Below, piece by piece: positions 1 through 64,000 of a stretch of DNA of 64,000 nucleotides. The DNA is from Lobosporangium transversale (lineage: Eukaryota; Mortierellomycota; Mortierellomycetes; Mortierellales; Mortierellaceae). Below the pieces are notes generated by a model. It had not been told where the DNA came from, did no database searches, and was given only the letters and a program-made list of their open reading frames with translations. Numbering within the stretch: the first letter of the stretch is position 1; each line of letters starts with the position of its first letter. The stretch spans positions 120,933 through 184,932 of the forward strand of contig NW_019029046.1 of NCBI RefSeq assembly GCF_002105155.1, written 5' to 3'. The position numbers and the translations under genes are program-made.

Positions 1-1650
1 GTTGCTGCGGCGTGGAATCCCACGAAGTGTGACTCCCTGTATCTGGATGGGCCATCTCCCGAAGAAAAAAGGTTGACGCATGAACGTCATGAGAAGTCCC
101 GGACAAAAGACGCTCATCATGTTCAAACCCTCCTGGACACCTTACAAGAGCTGGTTGGTAAGAAGCTCTGAGTGCGAAAGCGTCATATTATCAATACCAG
201 CATGAAGTAAATGCTGCTTTCTATTGTGAAACGGATTCTCACGTTGCCTTTGCTAAGTGCATGAGATCCAAGAATTGGGAAGCTCAAGAATGCGCTTACG
301 AAGCCGACGTTGCCAATGCTAGCGTCTGTTCCACTAGTGACATTGTTATGTCGGTGGACAACGACATCCTGGCATATGGTAATATAACGACCGCCCGACG
401 GCCCGTGTCCAGGCATAAAAGCTTCATTTATCACGTCCCAACCATGTTAAGTCAGTTGAATATCTCAAAAGGACAGTTGGCTGCGCTGTGCATTGTCTCA
501 AAAAATGACTACAATTGTAACATCGCACGAATGGGGCTTAAAACAAACTTCAAGGTCATCAAATCGCTTCAAGCAGAGGGTACTTTTGTTATTTTCGTTA
601 TAGAAAACAGCCAGAAATCGCTTCTTAACCTCTTCAACGCGCTCATTCTTTTTTTTTTTTTTTTTTTTTTTTTTTGACAGATCCTAAAGAATCGGTTAAA
701 CATCATCTCAATCATCCAGATGTTACTAGCAAGAATGAAACTTATGAACGCTTCACAACTGCCATAAAGGTTTTTATCAATAGAAGACAGCGCTCTCAGG
801 CTGCTTAACTTCAAGCTCAGGATGGTGGGAAATATCCTTGGGACGACTTCCGGGAAAAGCTCAAGAACTGCCATGCGACATTAAAATTGAGTAAAATGGA
901 TAGACCGAAGAAAAGCAGCAACCATTGATGGCTCTACAAAATCCATTAGCGACATTAAGAGCAGTCTACCTCCTCTCCGTGGCAATGGAGCAAGCATCAA
1001 AGAGTACATCGACAAGCTTGCAGAAGTGAAGACACACCTCAGTTCCTTCTAGAAGAAAAGAGTCATTAAAAGGTATTGGTGGAACGCGAAGAGGCCCTGG
1101 GATAAAGAATACGGTCAGGTCACCAATCGTCTGTTCAACATAGTTGGTGATTCAATTGGAACGAAAAGGAAAGAGGCCGGCAGGGTTATGTTTGCTGTAG
1201 GCCTGAGAAAATTTCTTCCAATGCCAGGCTTTCTTCTTTACATTCAAATCACCGTTCGAATGGTGAGTTTTTTTTTCCTTATAGCTGATATTTATACATT
1301 CACACTTCTTCCAGACCAGATCCCTTAGATACATTGTTGTCGACGTGAGCGAGTATTATACTTCTAAGAAGTGCCCTAGCTTTGAGGAATTTATGGGGTA
1401 AGTTGAAATTCGTCGAGTTTATTGCCCGAAGTGCAAGGCATTTATACACAGAGACGTGATGGCCGGCCACAACATAGCCAATGTCGTCTGCGATCATTTA
1501 CTCTACCAATAGCCTCTTTACCTTCAGTCGGCAGACAAGAATGGAGCATATCCTTGGATGAAAGATTGTCGTTCAGCGCGCGCCAAAAGTCAAACACCAT
1601 TCGAGGCTGTGTCAAGAAATTACTTGAACTATATAATATCTTGGACTAGT
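1..1650 (+). pseudogene. decayed PIN-Fanzor (TnpB-like) gene, copy 1
   Basis: The left part (about 30-780) translates, across frameshifts, into a PIN/FEN1-XPG-like nuclease: EADVA, SVDNDILAYG, then LCIVSKNDYN and GLKTNFKVIK, matching the acidic motifs and helical clamp of flap nucleases. An intron at 580-680 still has GT-AG ends and a T27 tract and joins QAE to DPKESV in frame. The right part (about 940-1560) is a TnpB/Fanzor core: SDIKSSLPPLRGNG, VGLRKF then SSNARLSSLHSN one frame over, VSEYYTSKKCP, and the zinc-ribbon/RuvC-III block CPKCKAFIHRDVMAGHNIA at about 1423-1479. A second intron fits 1263-1314. Decay is clear: a TAA between the two zinc-knuckle halves, the second Cys of the first pair replaced (CPSF), a stop after DHLLYQ, and several frameshifts. 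The 5' end may lie outside the window. The Fanzor call is firm; the PIN call is by motif order and less sure. Fanzors are RNA-guided nucleases as a family; this copy cannot make an intact protein. Confidence 0.82.
649..675. repeat. T27 homopolymer in an intron
   Basis: An uninterrupted run of 27 T just before GACAG, the probable 3' splice site of the first intron of the decayed PIN-Fanzor gene. On the sense strand it acts as a long polypyrimidine tract. Confidence 0.9.
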
Positions 1651-4064: not shown

Positions 4065-7004
4065 CTAAGAGGATAGGGTATTTAAGGCTCGTTTGAAGAG
4101 CGGATCGGTTTTCAACGCCATCATTACATCTTCTTCACTGACACTAAGTCGAACGCGCTGATGAATATCCTGTTTCCCAGACTCAACAAGCAGACACCTG
4201 GAAGATCCTAAGCTCGCGCAAATAGCTGAGAGGTCGCTCAACATAGGAAGCTCAAGGTTATAAAGCCGACACATTTGCAGGTGTGCGTGTGCGATTTCTG
4301 AGAACTCTACTTCTGCCAAGCCAAGACGCCGGAGCCTTAGGGTCAAAGCTACAAGAAATAGTTTTTGATGCAAGGAAGCTGTTTGGATAAGACGGACATT
4401 CGGCGACGCAAACATTTCCTTGATAGCTTGATCCACTATACGGATTGTCACCTGCTCTGGTTTCGGAGCAGGTCCTAAGTCTAAGAAAGGATTCTTTTGA
4501 GATGTCCTTCGTCGCTGCTCTTCTAATTTCTGTGCATTATTCTCCACAATCTCCACAGCGCGCCTATTGTTGGCCATGGCGAAGAACTTTAGCTAAATGC
4601 AGGATGAAGGTAAAGCTTTTCGTACTTGGTTGAATAATGACATTGCGCTCTACCTGCATATATCAAGAGCACGGCGAGCGTCTCCCGAAACAGCGCCAAC
4701 CTTACGTGCAGCAAACTCGATTGCCTCCTTTTTAAACGCCCGAATGCCTTCCAATCTTGACTCGACAATTGTAACAAGCTGCTGATAAGTGTAGGGCTGA
4801 AAATTAATTCTAGTAAGACCTATTCATCAAAAAACAGGTTAGAGTGGCTTTGCGACATCATTGTCTTGCGTTCTGATCAGAATCGTAATTTACCCAAGCG
4901 ACTAGACACTTTGTTGGAGAGCATGCGCTCTGGCAGGTCCATTGTATTTGCGACAGCCACTACAATCAATCTGGAGTGCTGCCAGTTTGGCCATTCGAAA
5001 AAGTTATACATAACGGTTTGTTTGGAAGTGACCAACAGGTCTAGTTCGTCCATCAATACAACGCTATTACACAATAAACCACGTTAAAACATTTGCCGCA
5101 GTCTGAATCCCACTATGACAGGGTTTTACCAAGAAATTACCGGACTCTGTTCTATATACCATGGTAATCTCCTAGGCCCCGGAGTACTGAACTGTTTTTC
5201 CAGTAACTGCAGTGCATGGTTTGCAGTGACTTTTTGATTTGATAATGCCATCCACAAGAGTACATATGCATACGATGGCTCCGTAACCTTCATTCCATTG
5301 ATCTCAACAAATTGGAATGGTGATATTTCCTATTGTTCATCACCATTTGTTTTAAATCAATAAAAGTAGAGTGACAGTGACCCATATGTTCATTAATGAC
5401 TACATGGGTTTTCAAGAAAAAAAAAATACATTACTCCTATATCAGCTTTCGCCTGTAATGATCGAATAACCTCAAGTACCGTGGCTGTCTTTCCAGTCCC
5501 AGGTACTCCAGAGATATCTAATGGAAAACATTGATAAGCGGAAAAAATGTAAGCTTAGATTTGTTAACGCTTCACATGTAGACAATCGAAACCTTCCTTG
5601 ATCTTCTTACAAATGCAACTGCCTGTTCCTTCTTCAAGCGCACTCTCCAAATGCTCCTGAATTTCCATGAATTCATCCTCTCGGCAAGGCAGTGAATCGG
5701 GGACGGCTTTTACATGCAAGCGATTGCGCGCAAACTCAAAATCAGTCTTTGGTACGATAGTTGAAATCGATCTGTGGGTTGTTGGCACTTGAGGTGTTGA
5801 GGACCTGAATCGCAAACAAACTTAAAGATTAAGAAGAGACTTCATCATAATTTGATCGCATTTGTATCCTACGCATTTTTCCATACCCAGTATGTTTTGA
5901 AGAGACAGAGATGATAGCGGATTTTCGCACGTTCGCTACAGTTGCGGCCTTTTTCTTGGCAGGGCCTCTCTTCCTCTTCATTCTAGAATTATCATTCTCG
6001 CTCTCACTCTCGTTGCTCTGTTCATCACTGGCATTCTAATTTTGGGAATGCAAAGAGATTAGCGGTGCCTCATTTTGTTAGAACTCGTGGCCAAAGTGCT
6101 TGCTATATAACAGACTTACTGCTTGATATTCATTTGAATCTTCCTCTGAGGCACTGTCTATTTTAATAGTGCCCATCTTATGTTTTGAGGATGATTTGAT
6201 GACCTTTCGAGGCATTTGCTTGGTTTTCGAAAAATCATTAGAGGGTGTTTTATTCACTTGCGCTACACTCTCCTCTTTTAGAGCCATCATTTCATTATTG
6301 CCCATCCAATCCATAGTGTGATATCCTGTCATTCTTTTGACCAGGCCTCTGCAAAACCACACCATGCTCTCCTCATGATCTTGAACTTTCGCCTGTTCCT
6401 GGCCGAGACGCTGCTGCCAATCACGTTCGTTTAGCACCTGACACTTCGCAATGACAGTACTGATCTCATTCTTGTCATCATCAAGAGAATACACAATTTC
6501 ACCCTTCTCAAGTTGTTGTGGGAAATTTCCTTTGCGCTGATGTTTCCTCAATCTGGCGATATCTTCAGCCTGATGAAACCACCGAAAATTACCCTCGAGC
6601 CCTCCATCCTCAGTCTCCCACAGTTCCAGTATCTGTGCCACATGGGGATACTCATATTTTCCCGAGTATTGTTTATTTCGGAGAAGGACAGTGTCACCAA
6701 GGAAATAGGTCGTACGACCTTTCTTAAACCCGCCATAATATGGGATATTAGAAAAACCAGAACCGCGAGTAGCCCTCCTCAAAGGGATCCGCTCTAGCCC
6801 ACTACTATGACTGTCGGCAATGCTATGGTTTTTATCCCTATCGATAGGCTTTCTACGCAAGAATGTCTCTTTATTGAGTGGTTCCCCAATCCATTCAATC
6901 TCTTCATCTTCTGACTCAGATTCGAATGACTTTTCCGGCGCAACCTTTTTGGCCAGACGTCGGGTTTCTTTCAGTCTTTTATAGGTTCTCTGTTCAGTCG
7001 CCAT
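4065..7004 (-). CDS. ORC1: origin recognition complex subunit 1
   Basis: Orc1 is the ATPase subunit of ORC, which marks replication origins in the nucleus and loads MCM with Cdc6. Eight exons (7004-6120, 6035-5887, 5804-5611, 5517-5435, 5329-5160, 5063-4894, 4819-4654, 4563-4065) join in frame to 771 residues. The N-terminus carries a BAH domain (about residues 95-210, around [18 protein letters not shown]), then an acidic and basic linker rich in Ser, then the AAA+ domain: Walker [12 protein letters not shown], Walker [11 protein letters not shown], sensor 1 [13 protein letters not shown], and NKVSSRLG followed by [13 protein letters not shown]. The C-terminal winged-helix region includes [11 protein letters not shown]. 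The start is the only upstream ATG before the BAH domain. The exon 5 to 6 junction (LP to CVVLMDELD) was chosen because it restores the family sequence. It diverges from INTS6 across about 180 nt that contain an A29 tract. Confidence 0.96.
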
Positions 7005-39773: not shown

Positions 39774-40532
39774 TCATTGCACGTTTAACCCCATTTTCCA
39801 GCTTACATCTAGCCTCGCCATCCTCAATCTTTCCTTTGATGCTGGGCCAAAGATATCAAAGAGATGATCATGAATTTGACATGCCATACCGAGAAAGTTG
39901 AATGGCCCAACTTTCCTCCAGTTCTCTTCTAGCTCCAACAGCAACGACACTATGATGATCCTCAGTACCGGTCCCGTGTTTATATCATCAACCACTGATA
40001 GCAAGTCCTGGTGAGGGCTTTTAGGCCCCTTCGATGACATTTGGGTACCCTTGTAAGTTTTTGAACATCCAAGGTTCTTGTGTTCTCGAGCGCTATGTCC
40101 TAGCAGCTCATGGGAAATTGTCTCCTGTTGGTGCTTTTTAAATTGGCCGAGTCAATTAAAATAAGTATCGCACATGATCAGTTGTGGATATGCATATCGT
40201 TGATTGATTATGTGATTTCATCCATTTCAAGCCAACAATACTCGCCCTTGAGACCGTGGGCTTGGGCGTTAGCTAATGGTGTATTTATCAAGAAGGAAAA
40301 GCAGGAAAAGAAGAGATGTTGGTGTGATAGTTTAGACACGAATATAAGCAATTTCATGCATTAGGCGATATTCACCGATTGTACAAGCCAGGGCAGCTGA
40401 GGAGCCCTTCTTATGTTGAGAAAGAGGTTCAAGCTCCCCGTGCTGGATCAGCTCAGCCTTGTAAATGTCCTGAGGAGTTGACCTTGCAAAAAATTTAGAC
40501 AGTGTAGGAGATAGAAAGATGTAAAAGTTCAT
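39774..40532 (-). CDS. unknown multi-exon gene or pseudogene
   Basis: I cannot name this. Three blocks with good coding character lie in order on the minus strand. The first starts at an ATG at 40532 (MNFYIFLSPTLSKFFARS) and runs to GEYRLMHEIAYI, ending near 40335. The second (about 40290-40212) reads PLANAQAHGLKGEYCWLEMD. The third (about 40142-39774) is open for some 120 residues: QQETISHELLGHSAREHKN, SSKGPKSPHQDLLSVVDDIN, NWRKVGPFNFLGMACQIHDH and DIFGPASKERLRMARL, then a stop. Splice sites joining the blocks are not clear and the second block ends in a stop unless spliced. It is either a genuine spliced gene or a recently decayed member of a family. No catalytic motif is visible. Confidence 0.4.
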
Positions 40533-40888
40533 CTAGCACACCTTATCCATTCAATAAGAGAACAATGCATTTACATATCTGACTATAGGACAGCATGGAT
40601 TGGGTATGAGTATGTATATTGTAAACTTTATGCTGTAAGTGTTTATGTTGCGAGCCATAAAATGATTATCTAGACAGAGCGCGTGTCTTTCTTAATGATC
40701 GACTGCAGCATCATCAACTGTGCGTCAACATGGGGGATTTGTGAATGCATGCACGCATTGACCAATTTTAACCGTAATGCATGACATTAGTAATTACATT
40801 GTTGAACCGATATTTCAACGCAAGTATCAGAGAACTCTATCAAGCATGATGAGCTCTATATATTTTCAATCGCTCTTTATTATTATTA

Positions 40889-40938
40889 TTTTTTATTTTA
40901 TTTTTATTTTATTTTATTTTATTTTATTTTATTTTTTT
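40889..40938. repeat. TTTTA-type low-complexity tract
   Basis: About 50 nt of TTTTA and TTTTTA units just beyond the 3' end of the Bye1-like gene. Confidence 0.85.
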
Positions 40939-40948
40939 TGCATAGGTC

Positions 40949-43900
40949 TTAACGTCGTCTAGAGTTATCTTGCTTGGCAAGCCGTGGATCTTCTTGGCGG
41001 TACTGACTATTCGCTTGTGTAAGATATGACTGATGCTGTTGTGGTTGCTGCAACTGCTGTGGCTGTAAGTGTTGGTGCAAAGGAAGTGGTGGACGGAAGC
41101 TAGATGGGAATGGTGGTATAGCCGGCGGCGGCAACGGCGGCAACGGCGGCGTTTGTTGTCCATGTTGCGATTGTTGAGACAAAAATGCTTGCAGCTGATG
41201 TGGGGGTACAGGAGGTATAGGGGGTATAGGAGGCATCGGAGGCATGGGAGGCCGCGCGAGATGCGGAGGCAACATATTTGGAGGTAGTAAATGAGAGGGC
41301 AAAGGCGGAAATCCTGGTGGCGGGACAGGTGGATGAGGAGTGCCCGAGAAATATGGCGGTCTTTGAGCTTGTAAAGCAGAGGATGTCTGTTGTTGTTGCT
41401 GCTGTTGCTGCTGTTGCTGCTGTTGCTGATGATGCTGTTGCTGATGCTGTTGCTGATGATGCTGTTGTTGATGATGCTGTTGTTGATGCTGGTGCTGATG
41501 CTGGTGCTGATGCTGGTGCTGATATTGCTGCTGGTTAAGATGTGCCATGGCTTGAGACAGATTCATTGTGACACTTGCCGGTAGACTTGCAATCAGACTC
41601 GAGGCACTAGCAGCATTCAACTGGGCTGTCACTGCGGCCGCAGCAGGAGTCAAGCCAGATGAAGTTCCTGCGCTCGAGCCTGACGGTTTGCCAGAATGGA
41701 ATAGTTGGTCAACAAGCCCTTGTAGTTGTTCCAATGCAGGGACTTTGATAGGAGTATGAGCAGCAGTGGCTGCTGCCGTCGACGATGGATTCGACGCTAC
41801 TGGCGTTATCGGTGTGGTTACGGATGATGAAGCTGACATGGGTGTTCCAACGGAGAAAGTTGAGGATGGCATAGAGGTTGACTGATGTGGACGTGGAGAA
41901 TGTATAGCAGTGGCATATTCACTGCTACGTTGTTGTTGTTGCTGCAAGTCCTTGCTCTCACGCCGCTCGTGGCGCGGCGGAGGGTAAGGGCGTGAAGAGT
42001 TCGTTGTATTACCAGAGTGACGATGGTGTGATGATTTGCCATGGGAAGGTGAATGGCTATGACTGTGTCCATGTCCATGTCGATGAGGTTGCGACGCTTT
42101 ATTGACTATAAGCACTCCAAGTAAGGCGTCTTCTCTCCCAGTCTCTCCGTCTCGGAGAAGCATGTCACTCTCCACAATCCTTTGAAGGTATTCAGGTAGT
42201 GTCTCTGTTGCGGCCAATGGGACTAAATACATGTCCTTGACTAGACGAGCCTTTTGAGGTACAACTCCATAACGGCTTTTCTCATGAAAATAGTGAAACA
42301 GTTTATGAAATTCTGTTTTGTTTTTGTCATCCACATCGAACTGCACTATGATCAAATCCTTTGTCGACGATTGTATTTGTTGGGAAACATAGCTTTCCAC
42401 AGCTGGGATAGGGATGCGGCCTTCGATCAGAACTTTCCTAGTAAGGATATCAGACCATCCTGAAGCAAACATATCCACAAAAGGATCTACATCATGTCGC
42501 CCTGGAATAGTTCTACTGCCACCGATTTGGATTGCGCGAGTAAAGAACTTTGCAACTTGATCCATCTCCATGGTACCTTGCCATACTGGGAGCACCTTTG
42601 ATTTTACCTTGAGATTTTTCTCAATCTCCTCAAGCATAAAGGGCGGAGGGGAATTGAGTGGCGTTGTCGATACTAGCTCAGGCGATCCTACAGGCGACGG
42701 GGATGGAGAATAAGGCGAAGGCTCTCGTGGCAGATAAGAAGCCCCTTCCTGGCTGACATTAACATCCGTTTGCTTTGTGCGTTTCCCGCTAACGAGTGCA
42801 TCATTCAAAATTTCTTCTCCAGAACGTTTATTTGTATGGATTCTGGCCAACAACTTGTCCAAGGCCTCTGTCGTGGGCGACCCCACTGGCGTTGTCTTAT
42901 TCGAATGCCGCTGCTCCTGGGCAATCTCCCCCATCACTGTGCTTTCAGACGCATCTTTGACTACATCTGCCTTTTCTTCAATGTCCTTTTTAGCGTTACC
43001 GCTGACATCCTTTTGAGCCGTATCCGTTGGGTCCGATATACTTGCTGAGCTGCTAAGTCTAGAGGACCCTGGGATAAAGGTTACGTCGCCTTTATGCGTC
43101 TTCTTGATGAAGGGTTCTTGCTCAATGGTCAATACAGAATCATGAATACTTCTCTTCCTCACTTCCTCAGCAATGCTCTGCAATTCTGGATTTGCCAATT
43201 CCTCAGGTGTCAATCGAACAAGCTCATGCGGCTCTAATTCTCCAGAAAGCACACGAGCTCTAAGACTCTCGTTGTTTTTATCTTTGAGATTGAAAAATAA
43301 TGATCGGAATTTGGCTTTATAATCTTTTCCACAGCCAGACTGGCCTGGCGTAGCCGTGAACGTGTAGAGCTCCTTCTCAACTAATGCTGCCAGCTTGTTC
43401 GCCTGCTCTGTATCTACCCCTTTTGCTTCCGACTTATTCTCAAAGGCTACCATCAAACTTTCAGTAAGACCTTTAAGCGCTGTTGATCGCACAGGGTTTT
43501 GTTCAGCTTTAGGAGAGCCAGGAGATTTTGGGGTTAATGGAGAAGAAGGCTGAGCTGGCGAGGGCAATTTTTTAGCAGTCGGCGAAGGAAGAGGTTTTTT
43601 AGAGGGGATAATGATTGCAGATGGCCTGTTGTAATCTTTGTTCATCACAGCTTGTGATGCTTCGAGCTCGATACCCTTGATGGCACACTCTTCGCTGCAG
43701 TAATCGCTAGTGGCCCTGGCTTCGTTTAGACATGTTGGTAAAGCACAATCTCGTGCATCCTACATACAGACAAAGAAAGACACAAGGCTTGAGTATCAGA
43801 TAACAATGCTCTACTGAGCAGAATGGACACACTTTCTGTTCAAGATATCTTTTTTCTTCTCTCTTACCGAAATTCTTGACAACTTTAAACCTTTGCCTCC

Positions 43901-45577: not shown

Positions 45578-45888
45578 CGTTAATATGGTTTAATGTGAGG
45601 CTAGATCTCCAGTCGCTTTGTGTTAACTCGATCTGGATTTGACTTGGCTTAAGTTAGTAAAGAATGACTGTGATGGGATGGAGGACAATTAAAGACTTCA
45701 AAGTTGAATGACATGGACTCCTCTTGTGAGAAACAAAACAAAAAATGGGTATCACATGGCGTGTGACTGTGGAAAGGTTGCTGACTCTAAACTTGTTTGA
45801 CGTTCGGCGCACACTGTACGACCACCTTTCATCCAAAGATGCTCTCCATCCTTATCCATCAGCTAAAAGTAGCGATGCCACTATTAGT

Positions 45889-48230
45889 AGAGTAGATGGC
45901 CACAGGCAAATTGGTTATCTTGTGGCCAGCCATCACAACTCTATATAAATGTCTTGCACTTGGAGCAATAAAGCCGACGAATATTAGCTTGCTCGAAAGA
46001 TTCTTGCCAGGGCTGGCATTCCTTGGTGGTATGTTATTCATTCACGCCGACAATAATGTACCTAAGGGATCTAGCCTGGAAGGGATGTGAAAGTGTGAAT
46101 ATTAGCCGGTAGCATTAAAAATAAAAAAAATAGTATCTACTGTTCGGGTGAAGTAAGATTGGAATGACAAATGTAAAGAGGAAAGCTTAGCATTATAAGA
46201 AAACCTTCCCAAGCCTACAGCGATCACGACCCTGCTAGTCTCCCTTTTTTCGCTCCAACCAAGCTACCAATCATCTGGAACAAAAGATTGACAGCCTGAA
46301 CGTATTCTTCAGCTCAGATCCTCTTCGTATTTCTCCGCTGCCTTTTGATGGCTCCTTCCCCATTGAAGAGAACAAGGGATATCTCAACTTCTGCAGGCAT
46401 GTCGTTGTAGGTTTGATTTTTGCTTTATTGTCGTGGAGAAGGGGAAAAGTGTTCTTAATATCGCTGATGGATCAATGACTGCTGCTTTCCTTCATTCGAT
46501 CCAGTATGTGGGTTGATACACCACCTTTTGCTTGATAGGCAGATTGTAGAGCCTGGACTGTATAGTCGTGCTAACGGAGCCCCTATTGCTTGGCAACAAA
46601 GCACTGGCACCAACCATACAAGTTTGCTCTAGGCCGAGGCGTAAAATCGATGTTTTCTAGTTCAGACTCCAAAGGTTAAGAACATCTTGACAAGCCTTGA
46701 CTGTATTCCTGGTCTCGGTCAAATAACAATCTATACCGCCAACTGTAGAAGTGATGAGGAGAGGTAGTTTATTCTCAGGTAATCGTCAGTATTTCACCAC
46801 ATTCAGCTCGTTCAGCTTGAGCGCCAGCAGCTGAAAGAGGAAGCCATCAGTTCGAATCAGTATTTGCAAAATAGTCGTCTTTCGTGTAAGGATCTGGTTC
46901 AAAGCTACCATCTCGATGGTTTGAATATGATCTTTCATTTTTGATAGAGGCATCATGAAGCCTTGACTTTGAATTCTTTGAGCCTTCAGTGTTCCTCTGT
47001 GTTATGGCCCGCAATGTCAGTGATCAGCTTGTTTATCAGGGATCCAGGTTCTTTGTAGAATAGTCAAATCTTGAGGTTATTTTGAGTGAGGGAGGCAGGC
47101 GCAATGTTAAGAAATACATCTTTGGCATAATCCGGGTATGTTTGCTCAAGCTTGGTTTTACTGCAGCCTGTAATGGATGGCAAGCAGCCCTTGGCTCTCT
47201 CGATAAAAGTTAAATATGGCAATTCATTCCTTGTACTGCTGGGACGTTCACGGTTGTACGTGCACAGGGCAAGCACGGCTAGAAAGCTAAGCTGGTCGTT
47301 TCCCGGTGAGCCGCTTTCAAGGCACTCATCAATGTTTTCATCAACTTCCTCGGACCCCTCCTAGCTACCATTCATTTTCGGACAGGCCATGTTGAGCAGC
47401 ATTCTATCTGTATCATCGATGTTGCCAATAGAAAGGCGCTCGATATCGGGCGATAGCTCTCTGACAGTTTGAGCTTCATCAACAGCTTGGAGGCAAGCAC
47501 CAGTGGTAGGTGCCAAGTCAGTCCTATTGCTCACTGCTCGCTTGGTGTTCGCGAAAATGGCTCTAACACTGAGAGCTCTTGTCGAATGCACCCTTTGTAT
47601 TGCTTTGCCAGATCTCTTTTATCCATTTTCCTAATACTTTTTCACATCATTTCCTTTTGCTTTCGTGGTAAACGGTTTATAGGCCACCCATGGCCTCCTT
47701 TACACTGAGGAAGGTGCCTGCATACCCCCAGTCTTCAACTCAACGGCACTTGAAGATCCCCTTCAATCCCATGAGGTCCACACAATCCTTTTGCGATGAG
47801 TTTCGCGCAACATAATTCGGATGCTTTGGTGCAACGAGGAAATCGCCCAGTCTTCATTTTTCATCAAGGGAAACCTAGATTCAATATTACTGACTTATAA
47901 CAAGGCGAGTCTTGGTCAGGATTCCACAACAGCTACCCAATGTAATGCTAACCCGCGTATATCGAGCCCAAGTAGGTCCAAAACGCGGTAGGTACCAACT
48001 ATCATTTCGGACAGCCTCTCGAAGACCCCTCGCTGGCTTTGCTAAGGTAGCTATAGGTAGTGGGGCTGGAAAATGCAAATAACTGTGTGGGGTATCCATC
48101 AGTCAGAATCGACCTTTGATGCATGTAGCCATGCGTCCTATAACCATCAATATGGAGGTTCACCTTGCAAATACCTATAAAATGGGCCTTTAGATTTGTT
48201 ATCATTGTGATAGTTCTGGCTCTGTGCCCC
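45889..48230 (-). pseudogene. decayed PIN-Fanzor (TnpB-like) gene, copy 2
   Basis: Read right to left. From about 48060 the trace runs YLPRFGPTWARYTR, then (47590-47361) ELSPDIERLSIGNIDDTDRM, then an open stretch (about 47360-47064) with DQLSFLAVLALCTYN and LTFIERAKGCLPSI, a linker between PIN and Fanzor parts. KQKVVYQPTYW (about 46540), SDIKNTFPLLHDNK (about 46470) and the RuvC block VVIAVGLGRFSYNAKLSSL at about 46218-46162 follow. An intron fits 46076-46140 and lies exactly where copy 1 has one. The tail reads RSLRYIIVGVNE, stop, TTKECQPW, RRLYCSKCKTFI, frameshift, RVVMAGHKI. The RuvC-III Asp is Val here (HRD is read YRV), and the first zinc pair is broken (CQPW). A piece near 48150 (KVNLHIDGYRTHG) may be the last trace of the PIN start; most of the PIN domain is missing. 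Fanzor identity is firm; the linker assignment is by similarity to the family from memory. Confidence 0.8.
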
Positions 48231-63359: not shown

Positions 63360-64000
63360 GGCGCGATGTCCCCGGATCATGTCGCGATCAAAATACATCT
63401 GACAACTTCGACAATATTTGCACCTGTTACCATGGCTTTTCAGGGATGCATTGCACTTGAGCAGGGGCATTCGGCGCTGGCACAACGCCTATGGACACCA
63501 ACAACTTCGTATCCAAGGGACCTCGCTTGCGTGAAAAAAAAAAATAAAAAAAAAAAAAATAACAAAGCTTTTTTTTTTTTTTTTTTTTCGATACTTACTC
63601 TCACTTGAACCGCTTTTGAACTCGGATTGCTTCGAGAGCAATCCAGTTTGTGTGTTGAAAGAAGAAGGTAGCGAAAACTGCAGTATTGGGGCATCCATCT
63701 TATCTCCCTTGTTTTCTCCAGCAACTTGAAGGATTGAGCAAATCCCGTAGTCGTATGCGGCTTTCTGAGCTTTCTCAAGTCCTAAATCTTTCATAGATGT
63801 CACCTGTTGAGATAAACAGACTGGCACTACCGAGCAAAAGCGCCTCAATACTTTCTGCTACTAACTTTTCAACTCATTCAGACACTTTTGCAAATGTATT
63901 TTAAAGGATTCAGTCCTTCGCTTTTCTTTATGTCTGACCAGTTCTTATCAAAGTCCATGCTCCTTAGATGCTGCTGTTGCAGTTATGTGAGATCAACTTT
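63360..64000 (-). pseudogene. decayed Fanzor (TnpB-like) gene, copy 3, cut by the window edge
   Basis: Read from 64000 leftward: ELVRHKEKRRTESFKIHL, two stops, QKVLRRFCSVV, then KAQKAAYDYGICSILQVAG, GDKMDAPILQFSLPSSFN and TQTGLLSKQSEFK, which resemble the RuvC region upstream of the zinc ribbon. An intron fits 63526-63598 (GTAAGTAT donor, CACGCAAG acceptor) with long A and T runs inside, placed before ARSLGYEVVGV, the same position as in copies 1 and 2. After it come ARSLGYEVVGVHRRC, ECPCSSAMHP, a stop, and one frame over YCRSCQMYFDRDMIRGHRA, the second zinc pair and the RuvC-III Asp. The first zinc pair is altered. Sequence differs clearly from copies 1 and 2, so it is a different subtype. 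The 5' part lies beyond the window; a PIN domain cannot be tested here. Confidence 0.75.

Follow-up and report, generated by a model that had tools for sequence, protein, structure and literature searches.

The first 1,650 nucleotides of the 64,000-nucleotide stretch of Lobosporangium transversale DNA analysed here (hereafter the window; RefSeq assembly GCF_002105155.1, contig NW_019029046.1, positions 120,933 to 184,932) hold a dead copy, with an internal deletion, of a Mortierellales transposon gene family that encodes one protein. As read from its relatives, this protein would carry an N-terminal PIN nuclease domain of the FEN1/Exo1/XPG family (~350 amino acids), a lysine-rich linker and a Fanzor1 with REC, RuvC and zinc ribbon. 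We suggest that the Fanzor would cut DNA and the tethered PIN domain would trim the resulting ends; a fusion family with such a cut-and-trim mechanism is in our judgement the best explanation overall, with a probability of roughly 0.55.

A decayed fusion gene and its predicted splice junction

The original prediction, made from the letters alone, described a PIN segment joined to a TnpB/Fanzor core in one decayed gene. All of the motifs it quoted lie on the plus strand in the order claimed, with EADVA (300-314), VDNDILAYG (354-380), SKNDYN (498-515) and GLKTNFKVIK (534-563) in frame 3, followed by the zinc-ribbon block (1315-1473) in frame 1. Compared with the relative C13a, the plus strand of the window carries a PIN remnant containing the metal-ligand motif LYLDG, equivalent to FEN1 D86 (37..192, frame 1; tblastn, 44% identity), a PIN/XPG-I and helix-turn-helix remnant (207..581, frame 3; 47%), a Fanzor RuvC-II remnant ending VMFAVGLRKF (897..1214, frame 3; 52%) and a RuvC-III/C4 zinc ribbon (TNB) remnant with HRDVMAGHN (1315..1509, frame 1; 72%). 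A protein has been deposited from this exact locus (BX616_009329); it includes part of the 207..581 remnant, and exon 2 of its model (DPKESVKHHL...RRQRSQAA) lies at 680..808 in frame 2 of the plus strand. Between the PIN remnants and position 897 tblastn gave no match to the REC/RuvC-I region, which spans ~1.9 kb in C13a. Thus the predicted Fanzor core survives as RuvC-II and RuvC-III/zinc ribbon, while REC and RuvC-I are gone. Decay is also evident in three stops (TGA 169-171, TAG 1050-1052, TAA 1399-1401) and one frame change, between 192 and 207. The window lies within contig C93 of the 42.7 Mb genome that we searched, and the copy probably starts upstream of it, since an open reading frame (ORF) at C93:120736 resembles by eye the first active-site region of the relatives; tblastn did not report it.

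That the two halves belong to one gene is seen most clearly in the relatives, which we divide into group A (10 near-identical stitched copies), group B (L066, L068 and L069) and group C (C13a, C59, C79, C44 and the window copy). The PIN ORF of group A has 341 amino acids, begins MGIKGLY and ends AG/GTAAG (the slash marking the splice site), its terminal TAA being part of an intron donor. Exon 1 is open to this same phase-2 donor in 10 of 10 copies, intron 1 measures 84 to 104 nucleotides, and the following exon continues in frame, the frame being kept over the ~45 residues tested in 9 of the 10 and lost shortly past the junction in C46. With exact anchors, all three introns were found in six copies. 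In group B the donor is AC/GTAAG, in the same phase, and group C has the stop-in-donor arrangement of group A (AG/GTAATG), with the acceptor not defined. In L068 a single 512-residue ORF runs from PIN into the linker, a deletion having removed the intron together with some of the junction peptide. Predicted proteins from other strains, which like L. transversale we take to be all Mortierellales, also span the PIN-Fanzor junction: P0003 (Mortierella sp. GBA43, 998 residues; as modelled, without the ribbon), P0005 (GBAus27b, 1153), P0006 (M. alpina, 1404) and the partial P0007 (M. antarctica) and P0010 (Modicella reniformis). These are automatic and imperfect gene models; they have in common the junction peptide FY[IV]..GS..NQ[FY]R[PH].F. 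The in-frame exon junction and the predicted junction-spanning proteins support the predicted single gene, and with high confidence we read PIN and Fanzor as a single-gene fusion. Two adjacent genes on one transposon, giving a FEN-like nuclease and a Fanzor as separate proteins, would account for the two halves occupying separate ORFs at the genomic level and for the stop codon that closes the PIN ORF in groups A, B and C, but we reject this as very improbable, because that stop lies inside a GT donor with the next exon in frame at the same phase (groups A and B), because a single ORF joins the two halves in L068 (the result of a deletion), and because the modelled proteins of five other strains cross the junction.

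The arrangement is repeated across the genome. The window's PIN ORF matches 73 places at E<=0.01, one of them itself and the next best at 5.4e-39; for the ribbon family the count is 90 at E<=10, and both figures are lower bounds. Of the 73 PIN matches, 44 are followed within 6 kb by a ribbon on their own strand (43 ribbons, one locus having its PIN in two pieces), compared with 0.46 pairs expected, and in 41 of the 44 the distance is 1989-2908 bp; as exceptions, the ribbon is upstream in one pair and on the opposite strand in two. Seven of the 47 ribbon-only loci were examined (L009, L010, L014, L015, L016, L034 and L035); all have decayed or partial cores, L014 with an apparent PIN piece, and none is a clear PIN-less intact Fanzor. 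A further diverged PIN (L005/L043, C117:643538-644023, start MGIVGLWPLLEEKGYDP) scores above the XPG_I cut-off and has no zinc-ribbon match within 6 kb downstream. A protein search with alignment A2, in which the best 7999 candidates by word sharing were scored (8000 in the other protein search), gave two matches, one of them new, and with the same alignment no viral relatives were found in IMG/VR (26 pattern matches, none confirmed).

The two nuclease halves

Against Pfam XPG_I (cut-off 24.9 bits), the window's PIN ORF (162-677) scores 21.1 bits with E 4e-4; C117 and C13a reach 27.0 and 25.9 bits, P0010 24.1, C116 20.4, C49 19.0 and group A 13.9. Residues 2-296 of P0010 are predicted to adopt an Exo1/FEN1/XPG-type fold with a helix-turn-helix, and the closest folds to the PIN half are DNA 5'-nucleases with this feature (Exo1, FEN1, XPG and GEN1). 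A chance PIN match was rejected on account of this fold and of the 73 genome places. Among host FEN/XPG genes, L001 scores best against the PIN profile (27.6 bits). P0010 shares with Exo1, FEN1 and XPG the start MG, the active-site acids and the helix-turn-helix as well as the fold, at 13-18% identity in the rows shown; those are host repair enzymes, whereas the PIN domain here is transposon-borne and fused to an RNA-guided nuclease. In seven aligned rows, and in what we take to be FEN1 numbering, D34, D86, D181 and D233 are kept in 7/7 (the P0005 residue at D86 being an alignment artefact), E158 and E160 (as D) in 6/6 with one gap, and D179 in 6/7. From these residues and the modelled fold, the PIN domain is probably catalytic.

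The C-terminal half has a predicted Fanzor/TnpB/Cas12 fold, with Fanzor1 as top structural match, tied with Cas12f. A core profile matched SpuFz1 with E 3.2e-4 over the whole sequence, the remaining 21 of 22 matches being ferritins at E>=0.28; the best single stretch in SpuFz1 (E 0.039) aligned the ESRIPS segment, an 'ESxIPS' segment that the family and SpuFz1 have in common. In the window, the two stop-free pieces of the ribbon match Cas12f1-like_TNB (E 4e-4 and 0.009), and the ribbon read through its one stop scores 40.4 bits against PF07282, above the cut-off of 26.3. The available portion of PMC3627910 gives the Fanzor1 motif as D-X(125,275)-[TS][TS]-X-X-C4 zinc finger-X(5,50)-RD. Using this pattern with the gap widened to 100-330, we matched 4 of 10 proteins: the gap from RuvC-I is 174 in P0004, 180 in P0005 and 202 in P0006, and P0007, which lacks RuvC-I, relies on another D. 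In the remaining six, RuvC-I, the ribbon or both were not found by the patterns used. The zinc-ribbon motif and its spacing are shared with the Fanzor1 proteins SpuFz1, PpFz1 and GtFz1, which are transposon-borne too; the TnpB of IS200/IS605 is prokaryotic, and we know of none with a PIN half. The family differs from Fanzor1 in the ~350-residue FEN-type nuclease that precedes the core, Fz1 proteins being mostly 600-700 residues long according to the accessible text of PMC11423790. When the right end of group A copies was folded in search of a guide RNA, the predictions showed no more than a short hairpin close to that end, and the near identity of the copies leaves no covariation.

The element and its neighbours

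Three group A copies read to both ends give an element of 6.1-6.4 kb with inverted ends TATAG[CT]CCGT[CT]CCATT and TA on both sides, a likely target duplication; the right end occurs at 29 genome places with at most two mismatches. Near identity of the copies suggests that group A spread recently, and it is very likely that the family spread as a DNA transposon. No transposase of its own was found: ten ORFs of 61-97 residues, taken from the 2.1 kb that precede the gene, have no match to any Pfam family at E<=0.01, although the element may hold a diverged or broken one. For group B the right end was located and the left end not delimited. Summed dN/dS (the ratio of nonsynonymous to synonymous substitution rates) in group A is 0.38 for exon 1 (10 copies) and 0.43 for part of a core exon (seven copies); in group B, exon 1 yields 0.48, 0.72 and 0.43 in three pairs. 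Since the copy pairs are not independent, these values do no more than suggest that selection acted on both halves before the spread of the copies.

Past the stop codon and before the right end, 8 of 10 group A copies carry a stretch that resembles an intron (GTAAGT ... AG); in group B (L068/L069) such a stretch ends 11 nucleotides before the right end, so that a transcript could splice into flanking DNA. The pattern is absent in C13a, C59, C79 and C44. At 977-1606 from its left end, upstream of its own gene, the group A copy C46 contains a decayed fragment of a group B gene in antisense orientation (~85% identity over 553 columns), whose peptides recur in the C84 copy.

Elsewhere in the window, a second decayed copy lies on the minus strand (45887..47432; blastn 69% over 731 columns, and tblastn) with REC, RuvC-I, RuvC-II and zinc-ribbon remnants, and tblastn at E<=1e-3 found no PIN there. 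A possible third, weak zinc-ribbon trace is at 63398..63526 on the minus strand (tblastn E 2.7e-4, 33% identity). Near the first copy, a gene at 4065-5554 (minus strand) with Cdc6_C (E 8e-16) and AAA pieces is presumably of the Orc1/Cdc6 replication type. GC skew is 0.248 at 40001-42000, the second-highest 2-kb value being 0.153.

How the two nucleases might act together

We propose that the RuvC domain, guided by RNA, would break both DNA strands, probably at the element's empty sites, and that the tethered PIN would trim the 5' strand or remove a 5' flap at the break. Repair would then proceed by recombination with an element-bearing copy and not by end joining, restoring the element at the cut site. 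End resection is a tentative assignment for the PIN domain, and slightly more tentative is the complete two-nuclease machine, in which the Fanzor cuts, the attached Exo1-like nuclease resects and repair is steered to recombination, so that the transposon is copied or kept.

Several observations weigh against this reading. The fusion is read from genomic sequence and automatic gene models, not from transcripts, and the six group A copies with all three introns are all interrupted, with first stops at residue 370-766, so that no complete intact gene is in hand. In the gene models, the D86 segment is missing from P0005 and the EAD segment from P0006; P0006 also has E in place of the RuvC-I D, and in P0003 N replaces one active-site D. 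P0002-P0009 gave no XPG_I match at E<=1, and the mean pLDDT (predicted local distance difference test) is 49.7 for the P0005 model and under 46 in three of five P0010 models. Across the genome, 29 of the 73 PIN matches are without a downstream ribbon and 47 of the 90 ribbons without a PIN. The evidence for both ends and for recent spread comes from group A, whereas the window copy belongs to group C.

The PIN domain might instead act on RNA, trimming the guide RNA or the element transcript and not DNA ends. Many PIN nucleases cut RNA, the guide RNA of a Fanzor must be released from the element transcript, and the intron-like stretch of groups A and B would suit such a role; we consider it unlikely, the nearest folds being DNA 5'-nucleases. 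It is more doubtful that the PIN domain serves transposition, in which case it would cut or trim either the ends of the element or intermediates of repair on behalf of a transposase acting in trans. Such a role would fit the inverted ends and flanking TA of group A, where the upstream ORFs showed no transposase by Pfam, but a separate transposase in trans explains these ends without the PIN domain, and there is no evidence of its binding to them. Finally, the substitution in P0003 would fit a DNA-structure-binding module that has lost catalysis, an improbable reading given that P0010 and the rows of groups A, B and C retain all seven acids and that exon 1 of group A has a summed dN/dS of 0.38.

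Fanzor1 and FEN-type nucleases are each known already. We know of no earlier case in nature of an RNA-guided nuclease fused to one of the FEN/Exo1 type; this family would be the first. Engineered fusions of Cas9 or Cas12a to exonucleases exist (our literature search gave no paper on them) and likewise tether an RNA-guided cutter to a 5' exonuclease; they are laboratory constructs, whereas the fusion here is natural and repeated in a transposon. A full-text literature search found, in the text seen, no description of a Fanzor fused to a flap nuclease; subscription papers fall largely outside it, so novelty is not proven. Nor does a PIN-Fanzor fusion appear in the accessible portions of PMC10711439, PMC3627910, PMC10432273, PMC11423790 and PMC11071296, the last of which applies the name 'Fanzor flap endonuclease homologs (Fendons)' to two animal-virus contigs, leaving unstated in those portions whether they are fusions.

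If the cut-and-trim mechanism holds, evolution would have arrived at the kind of cutter-exonuclease fusion that genome engineers construct. A role in steering repair, as the second domain suggests, bears on why transposons carry Fanzors, and editing tools biased towards homologous repair might be modelled on this natural fusion.
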